This document shows positions 23,907 through 29,558 of a stretch of 39,886 nt of DNA, in pieces (position 1 is the first letter of the stretch; each line of letters begins with the position of its first letter). Source of the DNA: Methanothrix sp. (lineage in GTDB: Archaea; Halobacteriota; Methanosarcinia; Methanotrichales; Methanotrichaceae); the NCBI RefSeq assembly GCF_024518575.1, contig NZ_JANIHG010000013.1:1-39886 (forward strand), in the 5' to 3' direction. Made by a program: the position numbers and the translations under genes. The notes under the pieces are model-generated. The model saw nothing but the letters and a program-made list of their open reading frames with translations, ran no database searches and was not told where the DNA came from.

Positions 23907-24341
23907 TCATGGGCTGGCATTTATCAGCTCCTCATAGCCGATATAGCTCATGAGGTCATCCTTCTTGTCGCCTATCAGCTCCCTCTCTCTGCTAAGTATA
24001 TCGCGAATGAGCGGGATTACAGGCTCATCGCCGTCCCAGTTCTTAAGGAGTATCTCATCAGATCCTGTGGCCGTGCGCACCTGATCAGCGACCATGGCGC
24101 ACAGGAATATGTCGTCCACATAGCCCTCTGCCCCGTGCGATTCCTCGGGGATGATATCGGATGGCAGGATGAAATATGCTATCGCAGCTATGACCAGCTT
24201 CCACATGCGTCTGGGCAGCTCCGGATCCCCGAGCATGCGGCTCATTAGCCTGTAAAATGCGGGGGCGTATCTCACGAGATCGCTGTGCTTTCCCTCATAG
24301 CCCTCTATGTCCTTCTCGAGTATCTTGTCAAATCTATCCAA
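23907..24341 (-). CDS. YkvA/DUF1232-like protein
   Basis: The product from TTG 24341 is 144 residues; the frame is open to 24443. This start is chosen because GGAGGG stands about 8 nt before it and the conserved part begins only later. The core is a hydrophobic helix and short motif, MWKLVIAAIAYFILPSDIIPEE, followed by GYVDDIFLCAMVADQVRT, which matches DUF1232 (YkvA-like) proteins of unknown function, usually with one membrane-associated helix. A 21-bp palindrome lies 31 bp upstream of the start. It is not close to any co-directional gene. Confidence 0.78.
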   Translation of the reverse strand: MDRFDKILEKDIEGYEGKHSDLVRYAPAFYRLMSRMLGDPELPRRMWKLVIAAIAYFILPSDIIPEESHGAEGYVDDIFLCAMVADQVRTATGSDEILLKNWDGDEPVIPLIRDILSRERELIGDKKDDLMSYIGYEELINASP

Positions 24342-24371
24342 GGAGTGCCCTCCCTGAAGGCCCTTGATGGG

Positions 24372-24392
24372 AATTATCACCGGGTGATAATT
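24372..24392. promoter_or_regulatory. 21-bp perfect palindrome, likely operator
   Basis: AATTATCACC-G-GGTGATAATT is a perfect 10-bp inverted repeat around one base. Its A/T-rich arm (GTTAATTATC on the minus strand) could be the TATA box for the YkvA-like gene if that starts at TTG 24341, placing the palindrome exactly where a repressor would act. Confidence 0.5.
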
Positions 24393-24486
24393 AACCTTTC
24401 CGCCATGTCTCATGCGGTTTGATAGGCGCATGCGTGCAAGCAATCACGAAAGGTTTTTAATTGAGGCCATGGCTACCTCGGTGACC

Positions 24487-24663
24487 ATGGGAAAGACAGG
24501 AAGTGTAGTCTGGCAAAAGATAAAGGGCCGAAAGGGACAGGTCCGCATGGTACCGAGCTCAGAAGTATCCTACAAGAAGCCGGGGCCCCTTCACAAGTAC
24601 ACATCCAGCGGTTCCAGGCGCAGATGGATGAAGAGGTCTGAGAAGGCTGCAGCCACCAGATAA
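24487..24663 (+). CDS. Small basic archaeal protein (DUF5350-like)
   Basis: The 58-residue protein is strongly basic (MGKTGSVVWQKIKGRKGQVR...SYKKPGPLHKYTSSGSRRRWMKR) and looks like the small conserved methanogen family DUF5350; I recall this family but cannot check. A TATA-like GTTTTTAATTG at about 24452-24462 points to a start site near 24482, which favours ATG 24487 over ATG 24469. RNA or ribosome binding is plausible from the charge. It overlaps the beginning of thiI in another frame, suggesting translational coupling. Confidence 0.75.
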   Translation: MGKTGSVVWQKIKGRKGQVRMVPSSEVSYKKPGPLHKYTSSGSRRRWMKRSEKAAATR

Positions 24664-25813
24664 ACCCCAACTTGTTCTGGTTCGGTATGGAGAGGTCGCT
24701 CTCAAGGACAGATGGACCAGGTCGAGCTGGGAGAGGCTCCTGAGAGCGAACATATCCCACGATCTTCGCGCGGCCGGTATAGATTTCAGGATGACAGGGG
24801 AGGGCGGGAGGATATACGTCCATACTTCAGATGATAGAGCGCCCTCCACGATCTCCAGAGTTTTCGGCGTTGTCTCGGTCAGTCCAGCCTACAGTGTGAG
24901 GCCAGGGATAGCTGAGATCTCGGAGCTTGCGGTGAGCATCGCCATTATGCGCTCGCCGAAGAGCTTCGCGATACGCGCGAGGCGGGCCGGAGGCGACGTA
25001 TCCAGCGAGAGGATAGCGGTTGAGGTCGGAGCTGCAGTCCAGCGCGCCACTGGAGCAGATGTCGATCTTGAGAACCCCGATCTGGAGATATTCGTCGAGG
25101 CCCGCCCGGAGAGGGCGCTGGTCTTCACCGAGATCCTGCAGGGAGTTGGGGGCCTCCCTCTGGGATCGCAGTCCAGAATGCTCGCGCTGATCTCCGGCGG
25201 CATCGACTCTCCAGTGGCGGCATGGCTGATAATGCGTCGCGGATCTCCTGTATCGTTGCTCCACTTCGATGCTTCGCCATATTCTGACGCCAGGGAGCAG
25301 GTGATAAGACAGGCTGAGATACTTCAGGGCTGGATGTCCGGAAGGCGTCTCGATCTAATCATCGTGCGCAACGCACGTGCGATCGAGATGATCTCATCCA
25401 GATACCCAAGGGAGACCTGTGTTATTTGCAGAAGGTTGATGTACCACGTCTCCTCTCTCGTGATGAAACGGCTGAGAGCAAAGGGCGTCGTGACCGGATA
25501 CTCCCTTGGGCAGGTGGCATCCCAGACCCCTGAGAACATCATGGCAGAGCAGGTCGGGATCGAGGCGCCGGTATATCATCCGCTGATCGCGATGGACAAG
25601 ACCGAGATCGTAGATCTGGCGCGCAGGATCGGCACGTACGATGCATCCACAGGATCCAAGCAGTGCCGGGCAGCGCCGAGGCGGCCTGTGACGAAGGCAA
25701 AACTCGATGAGATCCTCGGAATCGAGAGGGAGCTGGGTCTGAAGGAGCTCGCGATGGAGCTCGCTGACGGCATGGAGATCGTGAGAATCAAGAGAGAGGA
25801 ACATCCTCTGTAA
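24647..25813 (+). CDS. thiI: tRNA 4-thiouridine sulfurtransferase ThiI (non-standard start)
   Basis: ThiI adenylates tRNA U8 and transfers sulfur to it; it may also serve thiazole synthesis. Domains: N-terminal ferredoxin-like (RYGEVALKDRW), THUMP (to about residue 160) and PP-loop ATPase with LISGGIDSPVAAW. Cys residues follow in CVICRRLM and SKQCRAAPRRP. There is no rhodanese domain, as usual in archaea. The first in-frame ATG (24791) would remove the conserved RYGEVALK segment. Upstream of it, back to the TGA at 24629-24631, no ATG, GTG or TTG exists in frame. CTG 24647, 9 nt after GAGGT, is my best guess for the start. A sequencing error is the alternative. Confidence 0.9.
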   Translation: MQPPDKPQLVLVRYGEVALKDRWTRSSWERLLRANISHDLRAAGIDFRMTGEGGRIYVHTSDDRAPSTISRVFGVVSVSPAYSVRPGIAEISELAVSIAIMRSPKSFAIRARRAGGDVSSERIAVEVGAAVQRATGADVDLENPDLEIFVEARPERALVFTEILQGVGGLPLGSQSRMLALISGGIDSPVAAWLIMRRGSPVSLLHFDASPYSDAREQVIRQAEILQGWMSGRRLDLIIVRNARAIEMISSRYPRETCVICRRLMYHVSSLVMKRLRAKGVVTGYSLGQVASQTPENIMAEQVGIEAPVYHPLIAMDKTEIVDLARRIGTYDASTGSKQCRAAPRRPVTKAKLDEILGIERELGLKELAMELADGMEIVRIKREEHPL

Positions 25814-26520: not shown

Positions 26521-27501
26521 TTACCTGAAGATATCTGTCCTGTGCAGACCTGAGAAGCAGACCCTGTCGCATCTTCCGCATCCAACGCACCCGAGCAGTC
26601 CAGTGCGCACAGGCATGTGCTCCAGCTTCTCCATGTACCATGAGGATAGCCTCTCTTCAGCTCTCGCCTTCGGGTTGGCTCCGGATGCCATTCTGTGAAA
26701 TCCTGAGAGTATGCAGGAGTCCGCACACCTGATTCTCTCCCCGTCCGGCAGGCCGAGATCTGCGATTGTGAAGCAGTGGCACGTGGGGCATACGAAGCTG
26801 CATCCGCCGCAGGAGATGCATTCCTCTGAGAGTGATCTCCAGTCGATCTCTCTGAGCCTGGATCTCATGCGCTCCGGAGAGAGCCAGGGCCTGGCGCTCA
26901 TGATCCTGTCGCGGCTTTCCCTCATGAGCTTCCTCTTTTCCACATCATCGCCCCTCTCAAGAAGCTCCTCTGATGCCCTCGCGAGCATGATGCCTGCAGG
27001 CGACCCTGTCTCCAGGAGATAGCGCTCTCCCAGATCTGTGAGAAGGAGATCGAAGCCCTCATGCGCCTCTGGTCCGGCCCCCATCTGGGCACAGAAACAG
27101 CTCTCATCTGGCTCTGTGCAGTTCAGAGCGATGATTGCAGTTGATCTTCTGCGTTTTGAGTACAGCTCATCGAAAGGCTCGGCGAGCATTATTCTGTCCA
27201 GGAGGGAGAGGGCACGGAGATCGCATGGCCTCAATCCAAAGATCAGTCTATTCCTGACCTCCGGGACCTCGAACGTGTAAAGGCCGCTCTCCTGGAGGTA
27301 TGTGAAGAGCGTTTCACGCGGGGGGAGAAAGAGACGCGTGGGCGGAAGGAGCGGATTCGGAGCGCTGAGCGCGAGATCCTCTCCCCTCCATGAGACGAGC
27401 TGCGGCTCTCCGTTTATTAGAACAGGAGCGATGATCTCGAAGAACGCGCCCGCCCTTCTGAGCAGCTCAGGTAGATCCCTCTTTTCTAGGAAGAACATCA
27501 T
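26521..27501 (-). CDS. Fe-S electron-transfer subunit (sulfhydrogenase beta/AsrA-like)
   Basis: The 326-residue product resembles the beta subunit of archaeal sulfhydrogenases and AsrA of anaerobic sulfite reductase. An N-terminal domain carries FGLRPCDLRALSLLDR and ALNCTEPDESCFCAQMG, and two ferredoxin-type cluster motifs follow near residues 235 and 310: CISCGGCSFVCPTCHCF and CVGCGRCDRVCFSG. It probably carries electrons between the FAD subunit and a formate dehydrogenase subunit. The ATG overlaps the fdhA2 stop by 4 nt (ATGA), so it is the last gene of the operon. Confidence 0.87.
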   Translation of the reverse strand: MMFFLEKRDLPELLRRAGAFFEIIAPVLINGEPQLVSWRGEDLALSAPNPLLPPTRLFLPPRETLFTYLQESGLYTFEVPEVRNRLIFGLRPCDLRALSLLDRIMLAEPFDELYSKRRRSTAIIALNCTEPDESCFCAQMGAGPEAHEGFDLLLTDLGERYLLETGSPAGIMLARASEELLERGDDVEKRKLMRESRDRIMSARPWLSPERMRSRLREIDWRSLSEECISCGGCSFVCPTCHCFTIADLGLPDGERIRCADSCILSGFHRMASGANPKARAEERLSSWYMEKLEHMPVRTGLLGCVGCGRCDRVCFSGLHRTDIFR

Positions 27502-29510
27502 GCGTCTTCTCTCCTTATGCTAACCGATACCATCTTAAGAGCCGGGATCTTCGAGAATCGATCGAGCTGCCATTCTGTGAGCATATTCGCAGGCGATTCC
27601 CTGAAGTGGAATGGCATGAAGAGCATGCCCTCCCTGACGTCATCGCTCAGCCTGGCCCTCGCCCTTATGGTGCCGCTCTCAGACTCCAGGATCAGGCCGG
27701 TACCGTTTCTTATTCCAAGGGCTGCTGCATCTCTTGGATTCATATCAACAAACGCCTCAGGAACCTCGCGCTCCAGGATGCAGACCCTTCTGGTCATGCT
27801 ACCTGTGTGGAAGTGGTACTGGCTCCTGCCTATGATGAGCGTGAACCTCTCGTCCTCCATACCGCGCTGATCAACATGCCTGAATACAGCACGCCCGCGC
27901 GGAAAACCGTCCCTGTAAAGCACGGGCGTTCCATGGTGCTCCTGTGTCGGGCATGGCCAGTGGATGCCGCCGCGCTCCAGCCGCTCATGTGAGATGCCGC
28001 CATAGCTCGGTGTCAGCGCCGCTATCTCCCTCATCACATCAGCAGAGGTATCGTAACCTGATGAGATGCCGAAGATCTCGAGGAGCCTAGCTGCCACAAC
28101 CCACTCCGGCAGCGCATTACCTGGAGGATCGATCGCCTTTCTTATGAGCTGTACCTTTCTCTCTGTTGATGTCACGGTTCCGTACTTCTCTGCGAACGAT
28201 GCGATGGGAAGAACAACATCCGCCATCCTTGTCGTCTCCGTCGGGAATATCTCTGAGACCACCAGGAGATCGAGAGACTCCAGAGACTTTCTGATCCTTG
28301 AGCTGTCGGGGTAGCTCAGGGCCGGGTTCTCTCCTGAGATGTACATCCCCCTGATCTCAGATCCCGCGGAGCTCATGATCTCGACCGCCGTCATGCCCTG
28401 AGATGCGGGAAGCTCCACATCCCACGCACCCTCGAACTTCTCTCTGAACTCAGATATCTTCTGGTATCCGGTGTAGTAATCGGGAAGCGCGCCCATATCG
28501 CACGCGCCCTGCACGTTCTGGTGGCCCCGAAGCGGATATATGCCGGAGCCGTCCCTCCCGAGATTTCCGGTTGCGAGCGCGAGATTGACGATCGCCTGAA
28601 CGTTGTCCGTGCCGTGCGCATGCTGGGTTATTCCCATAGCGTACACGATCGCAGCAGCCTCTGCGCCACCATACATAACAGCAGCATCGTGTATGAGCCC
28701 TGCTGGCACACCGCATATCCGCTCCGCGACCTCAGGCGTGTATTCAGCGATATGATCGAGGATATCCACGAACCCCTCAGTCCTCGAGCGTATGAACTCC
28801 TCATCGATCATCCCCTCGCGAATCACGATGCTCAGGATCGCATTTAAAAGGGCTATATCTGTGCCAGGCCTCAGCTGGAGGTGGAGATCTGCGATCTTCG
28901 CCATCTTTGTCCTCCTCGGATCCACCGCTACGATCCTGGCACCGTTCCTCCTGGCCTCCATGATGTGAAGGGCGACCGCAGGATGCTGCTCGGTCGTGTT
29001 CGATCCGATGATCATTATCACATCAGAGTGGAGAAGGCTAGCTATCGGGTTCGTCATCGACCCGCTACCGAGAGATGAGCCGAGGGCGAAGAGCGTGGGC
29101 GCATGGCAGAGCCGCGCGACGTTGTCGATGTTGTTTGTTCCAAGTGCTGCACGGCAGAGCTTCATGAGGAGATAGTTCTCCTCGTTCGTCGCCTTCGCAG
29201 ATGTGAGAACCGCGAGTGCATCAGGTCCTGAATCCCTCTTTATCTCATCAAAAGATCTCGCTATGAATGAGAGCGCCTCGCTCCAGGATGTTTGAACATG
29301 ACGATCTCCCCTGCGCATCAGCGGCTCCCTGAGCCTGTCTGGATGGTTCGCGAAGCCGTGGAGGAGCCAGCCCTTTGCGCAGAGCCTTCCCCTGGCAGGT
29401 GGTTTCAGGGATGGGGTGACAGCGATTATCTTGTTGTTCTCCACATGCAGATAAAGACCACAGCCGCAGCCGCAGTAGACGCAGGTCGTCTCAATCGCAT
29501 CCAACGCCAT
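27498..29510 (-). CDS. fdhA: Formate dehydrogenase catalytic subunit, short form
   Basis: Mo/W-bis-pyranopterin oxidoreductase of about 670 residues. The N-terminal [4Fe-4S] motif is TTCVYCGCGCGLYL...RLCAKG; the active-site segment is NVARLCHAPTLFALGSS, where Cys replaces selenocysteine and is followed by the conserved His. Cofactor-binding stretches include SNTTEQHPAVALHI and GHQNVQGACDMGALPDYY. There is no N-terminal ferredoxin extension, unlike the paralogue upstream in the operon. The start is uncertain: ATG 29510 (MALDAIETTC), ATG 29519 and TTG 29558 (immediately after the upstream stop) are possible. It overlaps the next gene by 4 nt. Confidence 0.92.
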   Translation of the reverse strand: MALDAIETTCVYCGCGCGLYLHVENNKIIAVTPSLKPPARGRLCAKGWLLHGFANHPDRLREPLMRRGDRHVQTSWSEALSFIARSFDEIKRDSGPDALAVLTSAKATNEENYLLMKLCRAALGTNNIDNVARLCHAPTLFALGSSLGSGSMTNPIASLLHSDVIMIIGSNTTEQHPAVALHIMEARRNGARIVAVDPRRTKMAKIADLHLQLRPGTDIALLNAILSIVIREGMIDEEFIRSRTEGFVDILDHIAEYTPEVAERICGVPAGLIHDAAVMYGGAEAAAIVYAMGITQHAHGTDNVQAIVNLALATGNLGRDGSGIYPLRGHQNVQGACDMGALPDYYTGYQKISEFREKFEGAWDVELPASQGMTAVEIMSSAGSEIRGMYISGENPALSYPDSSRIRKSLESLDLLVVSEIFPTETTRMADVVLPIASFAEKYGTVTSTERKVQLIRKAIDPPGNALPEWVVAARLLEIFGISSGYDTSADVMREIAALTPSYGGISHERLERGGIHWPCPTQEHHGTPVLYRDGFPRGRAVFRHVDQRGMEDERFTLIIGRSQYHFHTGSMTRRVCILEREVPEAFVDMNPRDAAALGIRNGTGLILESESGTIRARARLSDDVREGMLFMPFHFRESPANMLTEWQLDRFSKIPALKMVSVSIRREDA

Positions 29511-29558
29511 CACCTGCATGCACAGCCATCTCGATTGCCCTCCGAGAGTTGAAGCCAA

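Follow-up and report, generated by a model that had tools for sequence, protein, structure and literature searches.

How is translation of a conserved gene begun if the codons ATG, GTG and TTG are all absent from the place where its protein has to start? This question is raised by the thiI gene of a Methanothrix sp., located on contig NZ_JANIHG010000013.1, of which positions 1 to 39,886 were analysed (this whole stretch of 39,886 nucleotides is called the window in the following). A sequence-only reading of the window had claimed that thiI lacks all three start codons, that its conserved N-terminus is encoded upstream of the first ATG and that it overlaps the end of a small basic gene. In addition it had suggested that initiation may depend on coupling and possibly occurs at a CTG following the sequence GAGGT. 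In this work the claims were examined by frame reading, comparison with relatives, substitution analysis and structure prediction.

Identity of thiI and Absence of a Canonical Start Codon

Codon-by-codon reading revealed a frame on the forward strand which is open from a TGA at 24629-24631 to a stop codon ending at 25813. The features of this frame and of its upstream neighbor are:

24629-24631, forward strand: TGA closing the thiI frame upstream, unchanged in six genus members
24647-25813, forward strand: thiI, tRNA uracil 4-sulfurtransferase, as read from the candidate start CTG 24647 and with the stop codon included (TIGR00342, motifs, AlphaFold2)
24791-24793, forward strand: first ATG of the thiI frame, very probably an internal Met codon and not the working start (frame reading, pN/pS, alignment, model)
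24487-24663, forward strand: DUF5350 gene for a small basic protein, with ATG 24487 and stop codon TAA 24661-24663 (PF17299, E 2.2e-22)

The encoded protein is a ThiI. It scored 279.4 bits with TIGR00342 (curated cut-off 264.5), covering positions 1-370 of the 373 profile positions, and the Pfam families ThiI_fer (PF22025, from about 24674), THUMP (PF02926) and ThiI (PF02568) were all matched in this order. The N-terminal ferredoxin-like, THUMP and PP-loop domains, which characterize members of the family, are consequently all present in the matches, and the structure model reached a mean pLDDT of 90.8. An amino acid sequence alignment was established from 28 ThiI sequences, comprising the window, five genus members and 22 outgroup loci (all those described below except L027). 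Within this alignment the SGGIDS motif at residues 183-188 and the cysteines C258 and C261 (CVIC) are invariant, so that both SGGxDS and CxxC are found in the protein. The CxxC pair is a feature of the archaeal enzymes.

Between TGA 24629-24631 and ATG 24791 the thiI frame comprises 53 codons, none of which is ATG, GTG or TTG. Codons for the conserved ThiI N-terminus LVLVRYGE begin at 24671 and hence upstream of the first ATG; in the same frame they are preceded by the codons AGA GGT CTG AGA AGG CTG CAG CCA CCA GAT AAA CCC CAA. CTG codons of the frame are situated at 24638 and 24647 before the motif and at 24677 and 24740 after its beginning. The absence of AUG, GUG and UUG before the conserved start of the protein, by which a non-AUG start is recognized, therefore applies to thiI, and the observation of a thiI gene without canonical start codon is confirmed. 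Readthrough of TGA 24629 was considered as well and dropped, with no feature pointing to it.

The small basic gene with which an overlap had been claimed is the DUF5350 gene, whose TAA at 24661-24663 indeed lies within the open thiI frame. It is located directly upstream of thiI in all six genomes of the genus; the two frames overlap from 24632 to 24660, and thiI is in the +1 frame relative to DUF5350. The closest relative of DUF5350 in the PDB is chain BZ of the entries 9znf, 9zng and 9zni. Because uL2 is part of the same entries, DUF5350 is very probably a ribosome-bound protein of archaea. A literature search covering open-access papers, mostly by titles and abstract openings, yielded no paper naming this protein, and a term search for DUF and 9ZNF in the ribosome papers PMC12605026 and PMC12918454 gave no match.

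On the reverse strand of the window, two large genes at 26521-29558 encode proteins which, by the impression of their translations, resemble a molybdopterin oxidoreductase and an FrhB-like iron-sulfur partner.

Selection on the Coding Region before the First ATG

24671-24790, forward strand: coding region of the N-terminal ferredoxin-like domain of ThiI, located before the first ATG (pN/pS 0.088)

Within the genus, the codons of this region show a mean pS of 0.166 and a mean pN of 0.015, resulting in the ratio of 0.088, and for 24791-25790 the ratio is 0.188. If 24671-24790 is read in either of the other frames, pN exceeds pS. The variable columns of the 40 codons are distributed 3/0/14 over codon positions 1, 2 and 3, i.e., 14 of 17 fall on third positions (binomial p 5e-5). 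Judging from these substitution patterns, the N-terminal stretch of ThiI is still under selection at the protein level and thiI is a functional gene in the genus.

With residues counted from CTG 24647, the 28 aligned sequences agree without exception at V10, V12, R13, Y14, G15, E16, L19 and K20. In the AlphaFold2 model derived from this alignment, strand 1 comprises residues 9-14, helix 1 residues 22-42 and strand 2 residues 48-52. For the ThiI of Thermotoga, extracts of the structural report describe that the N-terminal domain binds the acceptor stem of the tRNA and that a loop of residues 12-21 reaches towards the active site of the partner subunit (PMC4041423).

These data bear on the simplest alternative, namely that ThiI starts at ATG 24791 and lacks the first 48 residues as counted from CTG 24647. 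No canonical start codon precedes this ATG in the frame, and automatic annotation is expected to favor it. A protein starting there, at residue 49, would however lose the invariant residues. In the predicted model, strand 1 and helix 1 of the tRNA-binding domain would be missing, as would the residue with which strand 2 begins. Since the 40 codons upstream still evolve as protein within this genus, where the upstream start codon is missing from all six genomes, we regard initiation at ATG 24791 as highly improbable. A start at this Met, which would have undermined the sequence-only reading, is thus opposed by both selection and domain loss.

As a control for other startless genes, 24 gene-like frames of at least 80 codons, from about 160 kb of the genome G003 and comparable with at least two other genus members, were evaluated. 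In this small sample, which allows few conclusions for the genome as a whole, six frames have at least 12 aligned codons before their first start codon, and thiI (ratio 0.22) is the sole clear case. Among the remaining frames, one has a ratio of 0.32 based on only two differences and three have ratios of 0.77-2.11. A smaller control with seven frames of the window agrees with this result. The DUF1232 neighbor was rejected as a second startless gene in spite of its ratio of 0.05; in four of the four genomes read, a TTG is found just after a site containing GGAGG. This divergent gene (23907-24443, reverse strand) probably starts at TTG 24341 and not at TTG 24443 of the longest ORF.

The DUF5350/thiI Junction in the Genus and in Related Genomes

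A search for thiI was conducted in 60 genomes including the one from which the window derives. Matches were obtained in 58 of them (none in G009 and G020), and 30 loci were read among the matching genomes. The genus is represented by six genomes, the window genome G000 and G001-G005, sampled as six species. The outgroup set consists of 23 loci with an intact N-terminus; left out were L030 (contig end), L001 and L003 (repeats of the window), L002 (not thiI) and five named public records, two of which are genus members and three of which apparently repeat outgroup loci. Two of the thiI matches were irregular. In L031 (genome G017) the match is split by an in-frame, low-complexity insertion rich in Ser, Pro and Tyr between the N-terminal and the THUMP part, and at G022:C14:3507-4433 it consists of two pieces with a stop codon inside, which may be due to a frameshift, to decay or to an assembly fault.

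The same startless DUF5350/thiI junction was found in all six genus genomes. One of them, G002, is a single contig of 1,879,471 bases. A junction pattern of 27 bases built from the genus matched exactly the six genus members among 50 family genomes, and the public records L033 and L034, probably duplicates of G005 and G004, respectively, carry the junction as well. The idea that a sequencing or assembly error hides a normal start draws on the fragmented state of the draft genome from which the window derives (72 contigs). With the identical junction recurring in six of six genomes, the single-contig genome included, and in both public records, the chance of such an error, named beforehand as a possible refutation, is practically negligible.

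The comparison with thiI starts of relatives, which the sequence-only reading had proposed as a check, showed that all 23 outgroup loci have an ATG 3-13 residues before the LVLVRYGE motif, and in the genus a canonical start is absent from six of six genomes; the missing start is therefore not a matter of chance. With the exception of L032, DUF5350 is located upstream of thiI in the outgroup too (22/23). At 15 of these 22 junctions the thiI ATG overlaps the DUF5350 stop codon (13 ATGA, one TAATG and one TGATG), and at the other seven the ATG follows the stop after a gap, with L012 and L016 showing the phase of the genus. Coupled initiation, as suggested for thiI beforehand, is plausible because stop and start overlap at these 15 junctions; for the genus, coupling would be carried over from this comparison.

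24664-24670, forward strand: shortened junction ACCCCAA, giving 10 nt from the DUF5350 stop to the motif (comparison of genus and outgroup)

The distance between the DUF5350 stop codon and the thiI motif is 10 nt in each of the six genus genomes, whereas it amounts to 14-17 nt at 12 of the 15 overlapping outgroup junctions. For ATGA junctions it is 14 nt in ten of 13 cases and 38 nt in the other three; in L010, the nearest outgroup, it is 17 nt. The shortfall of 7 or 4 bases in the genus is not a multiple of three and the relative frame has therefore moved. According to extracts of a study on coupled translation (PMC10666635), only one phase permits a stop and a start codon to overlap by 1 or 4 bases. 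A canonical start overlapping the upstream stop or lying a few bases from it, the hallmark of termination-reinitiation, is not found in the genus.

Candidate Start Codons

Taken together, the absent canonical start and the selected N-terminus suggest that thiI in the genus is probably started from an unusual codon, CTG being the likeliest. The following elements come into question:

24633-24637, forward strand: GAGGT, complementary over its five bases to the 3' end of 16S rRNA (CACCTCCT in G002), 9 nt before CTG 24647
24647-24649, forward strand: CTG, most likely start of thiI, eight residues before LVLVRYGE (3-13 range, Shine-Dalgarno energy)
24638-24640, forward strand: CTG, second-choice start, abutting GAGGT and thus without usable spacing (frame reading, energy)

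Read from CTG 24647, the ThiI N-terminus would be Met-QPPDKPQLVLVR, which varies by species, and eight residues would precede the motif. From CTG 24638 it would be Met-RRLQPP with 11 residues before the motif, and both values fall within the range of 3-13 of the relatives. The anti-Shine-Dalgarno sequence was taken from the relative G002, since a 16S rRNA search of the window's own genome G000 gave no match. The calculated duplex energies are -7.0 kcal/mol for CTG 24647, -4.1 kcal/mol for CTG 24638 and +0.1 kcal/mol for CTG 24677. The match is modest, since random positions of the window equal -7.0 kcal/mol in 9% of cases, and the neighboring non-CTG codons AGG 24644 and CAG 24650 score -7.0 kcal/mol as well. 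In the calibration, for which the row at 24490, one codon off the DUF5350 ATG, was not used, several large ORFs with putative starts had no Shine-Dalgarno match. With this and the 9% background, the energy was rejected as a weak discriminator among starts.

GAGGT and both upstream CTG codons are unchanged in the six species. This invariance supports the start weakly, because DUF5350 coding, with only 8 of 51 degenerate codons varying in the genus, explains it equally well and because GAGGT occurs at the same place in two of 22 outgroup DUF5350 tails (L028 and L031), both of which keep their ATG. In the two nearest outgroups, L009 and L010, it is absent there. The residues of the thiI frame within the overlap are not conserved (0 synonymous and 19 nonsynonymous differences summed over 15 pairs), which fits a free N-terminal tail and favors no particular codon.

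From its distances to the motif and to GAGGT we infer that CTG 24647 inside the DUF5350 tail is most likely the thiI start. The earlier suggestion of this codon after GAGGT stands insofar as it is the best-scoring CTG candidate; the Shine-Dalgarno match behind it is no more than modest, and its use as a start is deduced.

The Hairpin Downstream of the DUF5350 Stop Codon

24666-24731, forward strand: long hairpin, whose first base lies 3 nt past the DUF5350 stop and 19 nt past position 24647, where the CTG begins (predicted fold; putative role)

The hairpin comprises 25 pairs, 23 of which are intact in all six species. The MFE z-score for 24664-24735 ranges from -2.0 to -4.7 in the six species, and the excess stability varies with the limits chosen, with z of -1.2 to -2.6 for 24664-24760 and -0.83 for 24600-24740. 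A scan of 72-base windows along thiI found other places as low or lower, the best with z of -3.79 at 25330. None of the eight degenerate codons in the hairpin arms varies, whereas elsewhere in thiI 130 of 261 do (Fisher p 0.007). The mask of the arms, chosen after the fold had been seen, was compared with 314 slid masks, and none of these was equally conserved. Low variation near gene starts is common. Compensatory double changes were not found across the six genus sequences, which are too alike for covariation to appear. At the same place in six outgroup loci, a similar hairpin was found in L010 of the nearest genus (z -2.8) and not in the other five (z -1.65 to +1.85). As L010 keeps its ATG, the hairpin did not arise with the loss of the start. 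The fold in L010, the low scores elsewhere in thiI, the generally low variation near gene starts and the late choice of the mask all speak against a special role of the hairpin. Work on eukaryotic ribosomes suggests that a structure at such a distance could hold the subunit over a weak start codon, and the hairpin possibly helps initiation at CTG 24647 in this way.

The position of the hairpin would suit recoding, too. Near the end of DUF5350, the structure might cause a small share of the ribosomes to slip into the +1 frame or to bypass the stop, and these would produce a DUF5350-ThiI fusion with no second initiation. The +1 position of thiI and the frame overlap at 24632-24660 in all six genomes are consistent with such an event, and for other genes frameshifting in archaea has been put forward (PMC5009743). 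Assuming cognate anticodons, though, the P-site tRNA of the AGA or AGG codon at the stop re-pairs badly at +1, with 0-1 Watson-Crick pair, so that the re-pairing before a slow or stop codon that marks +1 frameshifting is missing at AGA/AGG-TAA. AAG 24643, the one codon for which full three-base re-pairing is feasible, is not followed by a stop, and the codon before the DUF5350 stop itself varies, both AGA and AGG occurring. A fusion would moreover join ThiI to a protein that is seen in structures of the ribosome, which is odd given that DUF5350 is very probably ribosome-bound. Recoding is quite unlikely for these reasons.

The second alternative is reinitiation just after the DUF5350 stop, at the near-cognate codons CTT 24671, GTT 24674 or CTG 24677, leading to a slightly shorter ThiI. 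The 15 of 22 outgroup junctions with a start at the stop are in keeping with it, and CTG 24677 begins 13 nt after the stop, a spacing (13-14 nt) at which Haloferax volcanii still reinitiates, less efficiently, according to portions of PMC10666635. The candidate codons are nevertheless situated within the hairpin stem and without a Shine-Dalgarno match (+0.1 kcal/mol for CTG 24677, as given above). A start at 24677 would also cost V10, invariant in 28 sequences, and two residues of the predicted strand 1, and the Met of all 23 outgroup loci lies 3-13 residues before the motif. We consider this alternative unlikely, and initiation at CTG 24647 is preferred.

Discussion

The account that best combines these observations, to which we assign a probability of roughly 55%, begins with the ancestor of the genus. 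Going by the spacing, a small deletion at the DUF5350/thiI junction would have taken away the thiI ATG, until then overlapping the DUF5350 stop or lying shortly behind it, and the same deletion would have shifted thiI to the other overlap phase. The gene would have kept its function, with initiation now taking place at a non-AUG codon in the last codons of DUF5350, likeliest CTG 24647. The small subunit would be positioned there by GAGGT (24633-24637), coupling would be supplied by the ribosomes translating DUF5350, and the hairpin (24666-24731) may keep the subunit close to the CTG. The rarity of the required step counts against a CTG start: extracts of a survey of 36 triplets of closely related prokaryote genomes give two AUG-to-CUG switches among 61,358 ancestral AUG starts (PMC5622118). 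In the text available from a review on archaeal initiation, AUG, GUG and UUG are named and no word begins with CUG (PMC7531240). Our literature search on archaeal CUG, CTG or non-AUG starts, covering open-access papers mostly by titles and abstract openings, found no report of this case.

Because the canonical start is absent in all six sampled genomes while the protein stays selected, the genus represents a natural experiment that asks if a conserved gene with a non-AUG or recoded start is tolerable for an archaeon, and the thiI junction offers a precise and cheap test of archaeal start-codon stringency. The comparison also suggests how a gene whose start overlaps the upstream stop may, through a deletion, become locked in a phase that rules out such an overlap with an AUG. 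Gene finders restricted to ATG, GTG and TTG are expected to clip the N-terminal domain of ThiI. Were the fusion to be real, it would link a tRNA thiolation enzyme with a small ribosome-bound protein.

Three known systems are comparable with the junction. It resembles the archaeal and bacterial termination-reinitiation pairs (ATGA, TAATG, TGATG), to which the 15 overlapping outgroup junctions correspond, in that the genus keeps the gene order and the tight spacing. It differs from them in lacking a canonical start and in its phase, in which overlaps of -1 and -4 cannot form. With programmed +1 frameshifting it shares overlapping +1 frames and a stable structure downstream of the stop, whereas a good +1 re-pairing site at the stop is lacking and the outgroup genes have their own stop and start. 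Like prokaryotic CUG initiation, the proposed start would use an in-frame single-base variant of AUG after a Shine-Dalgarno-like GAGGT; unlike it, the codon is part of the upstream gene's own coding sequence, the organism is an archaeon, and the junction is startless in every one of the six genomes sampled for the genus.
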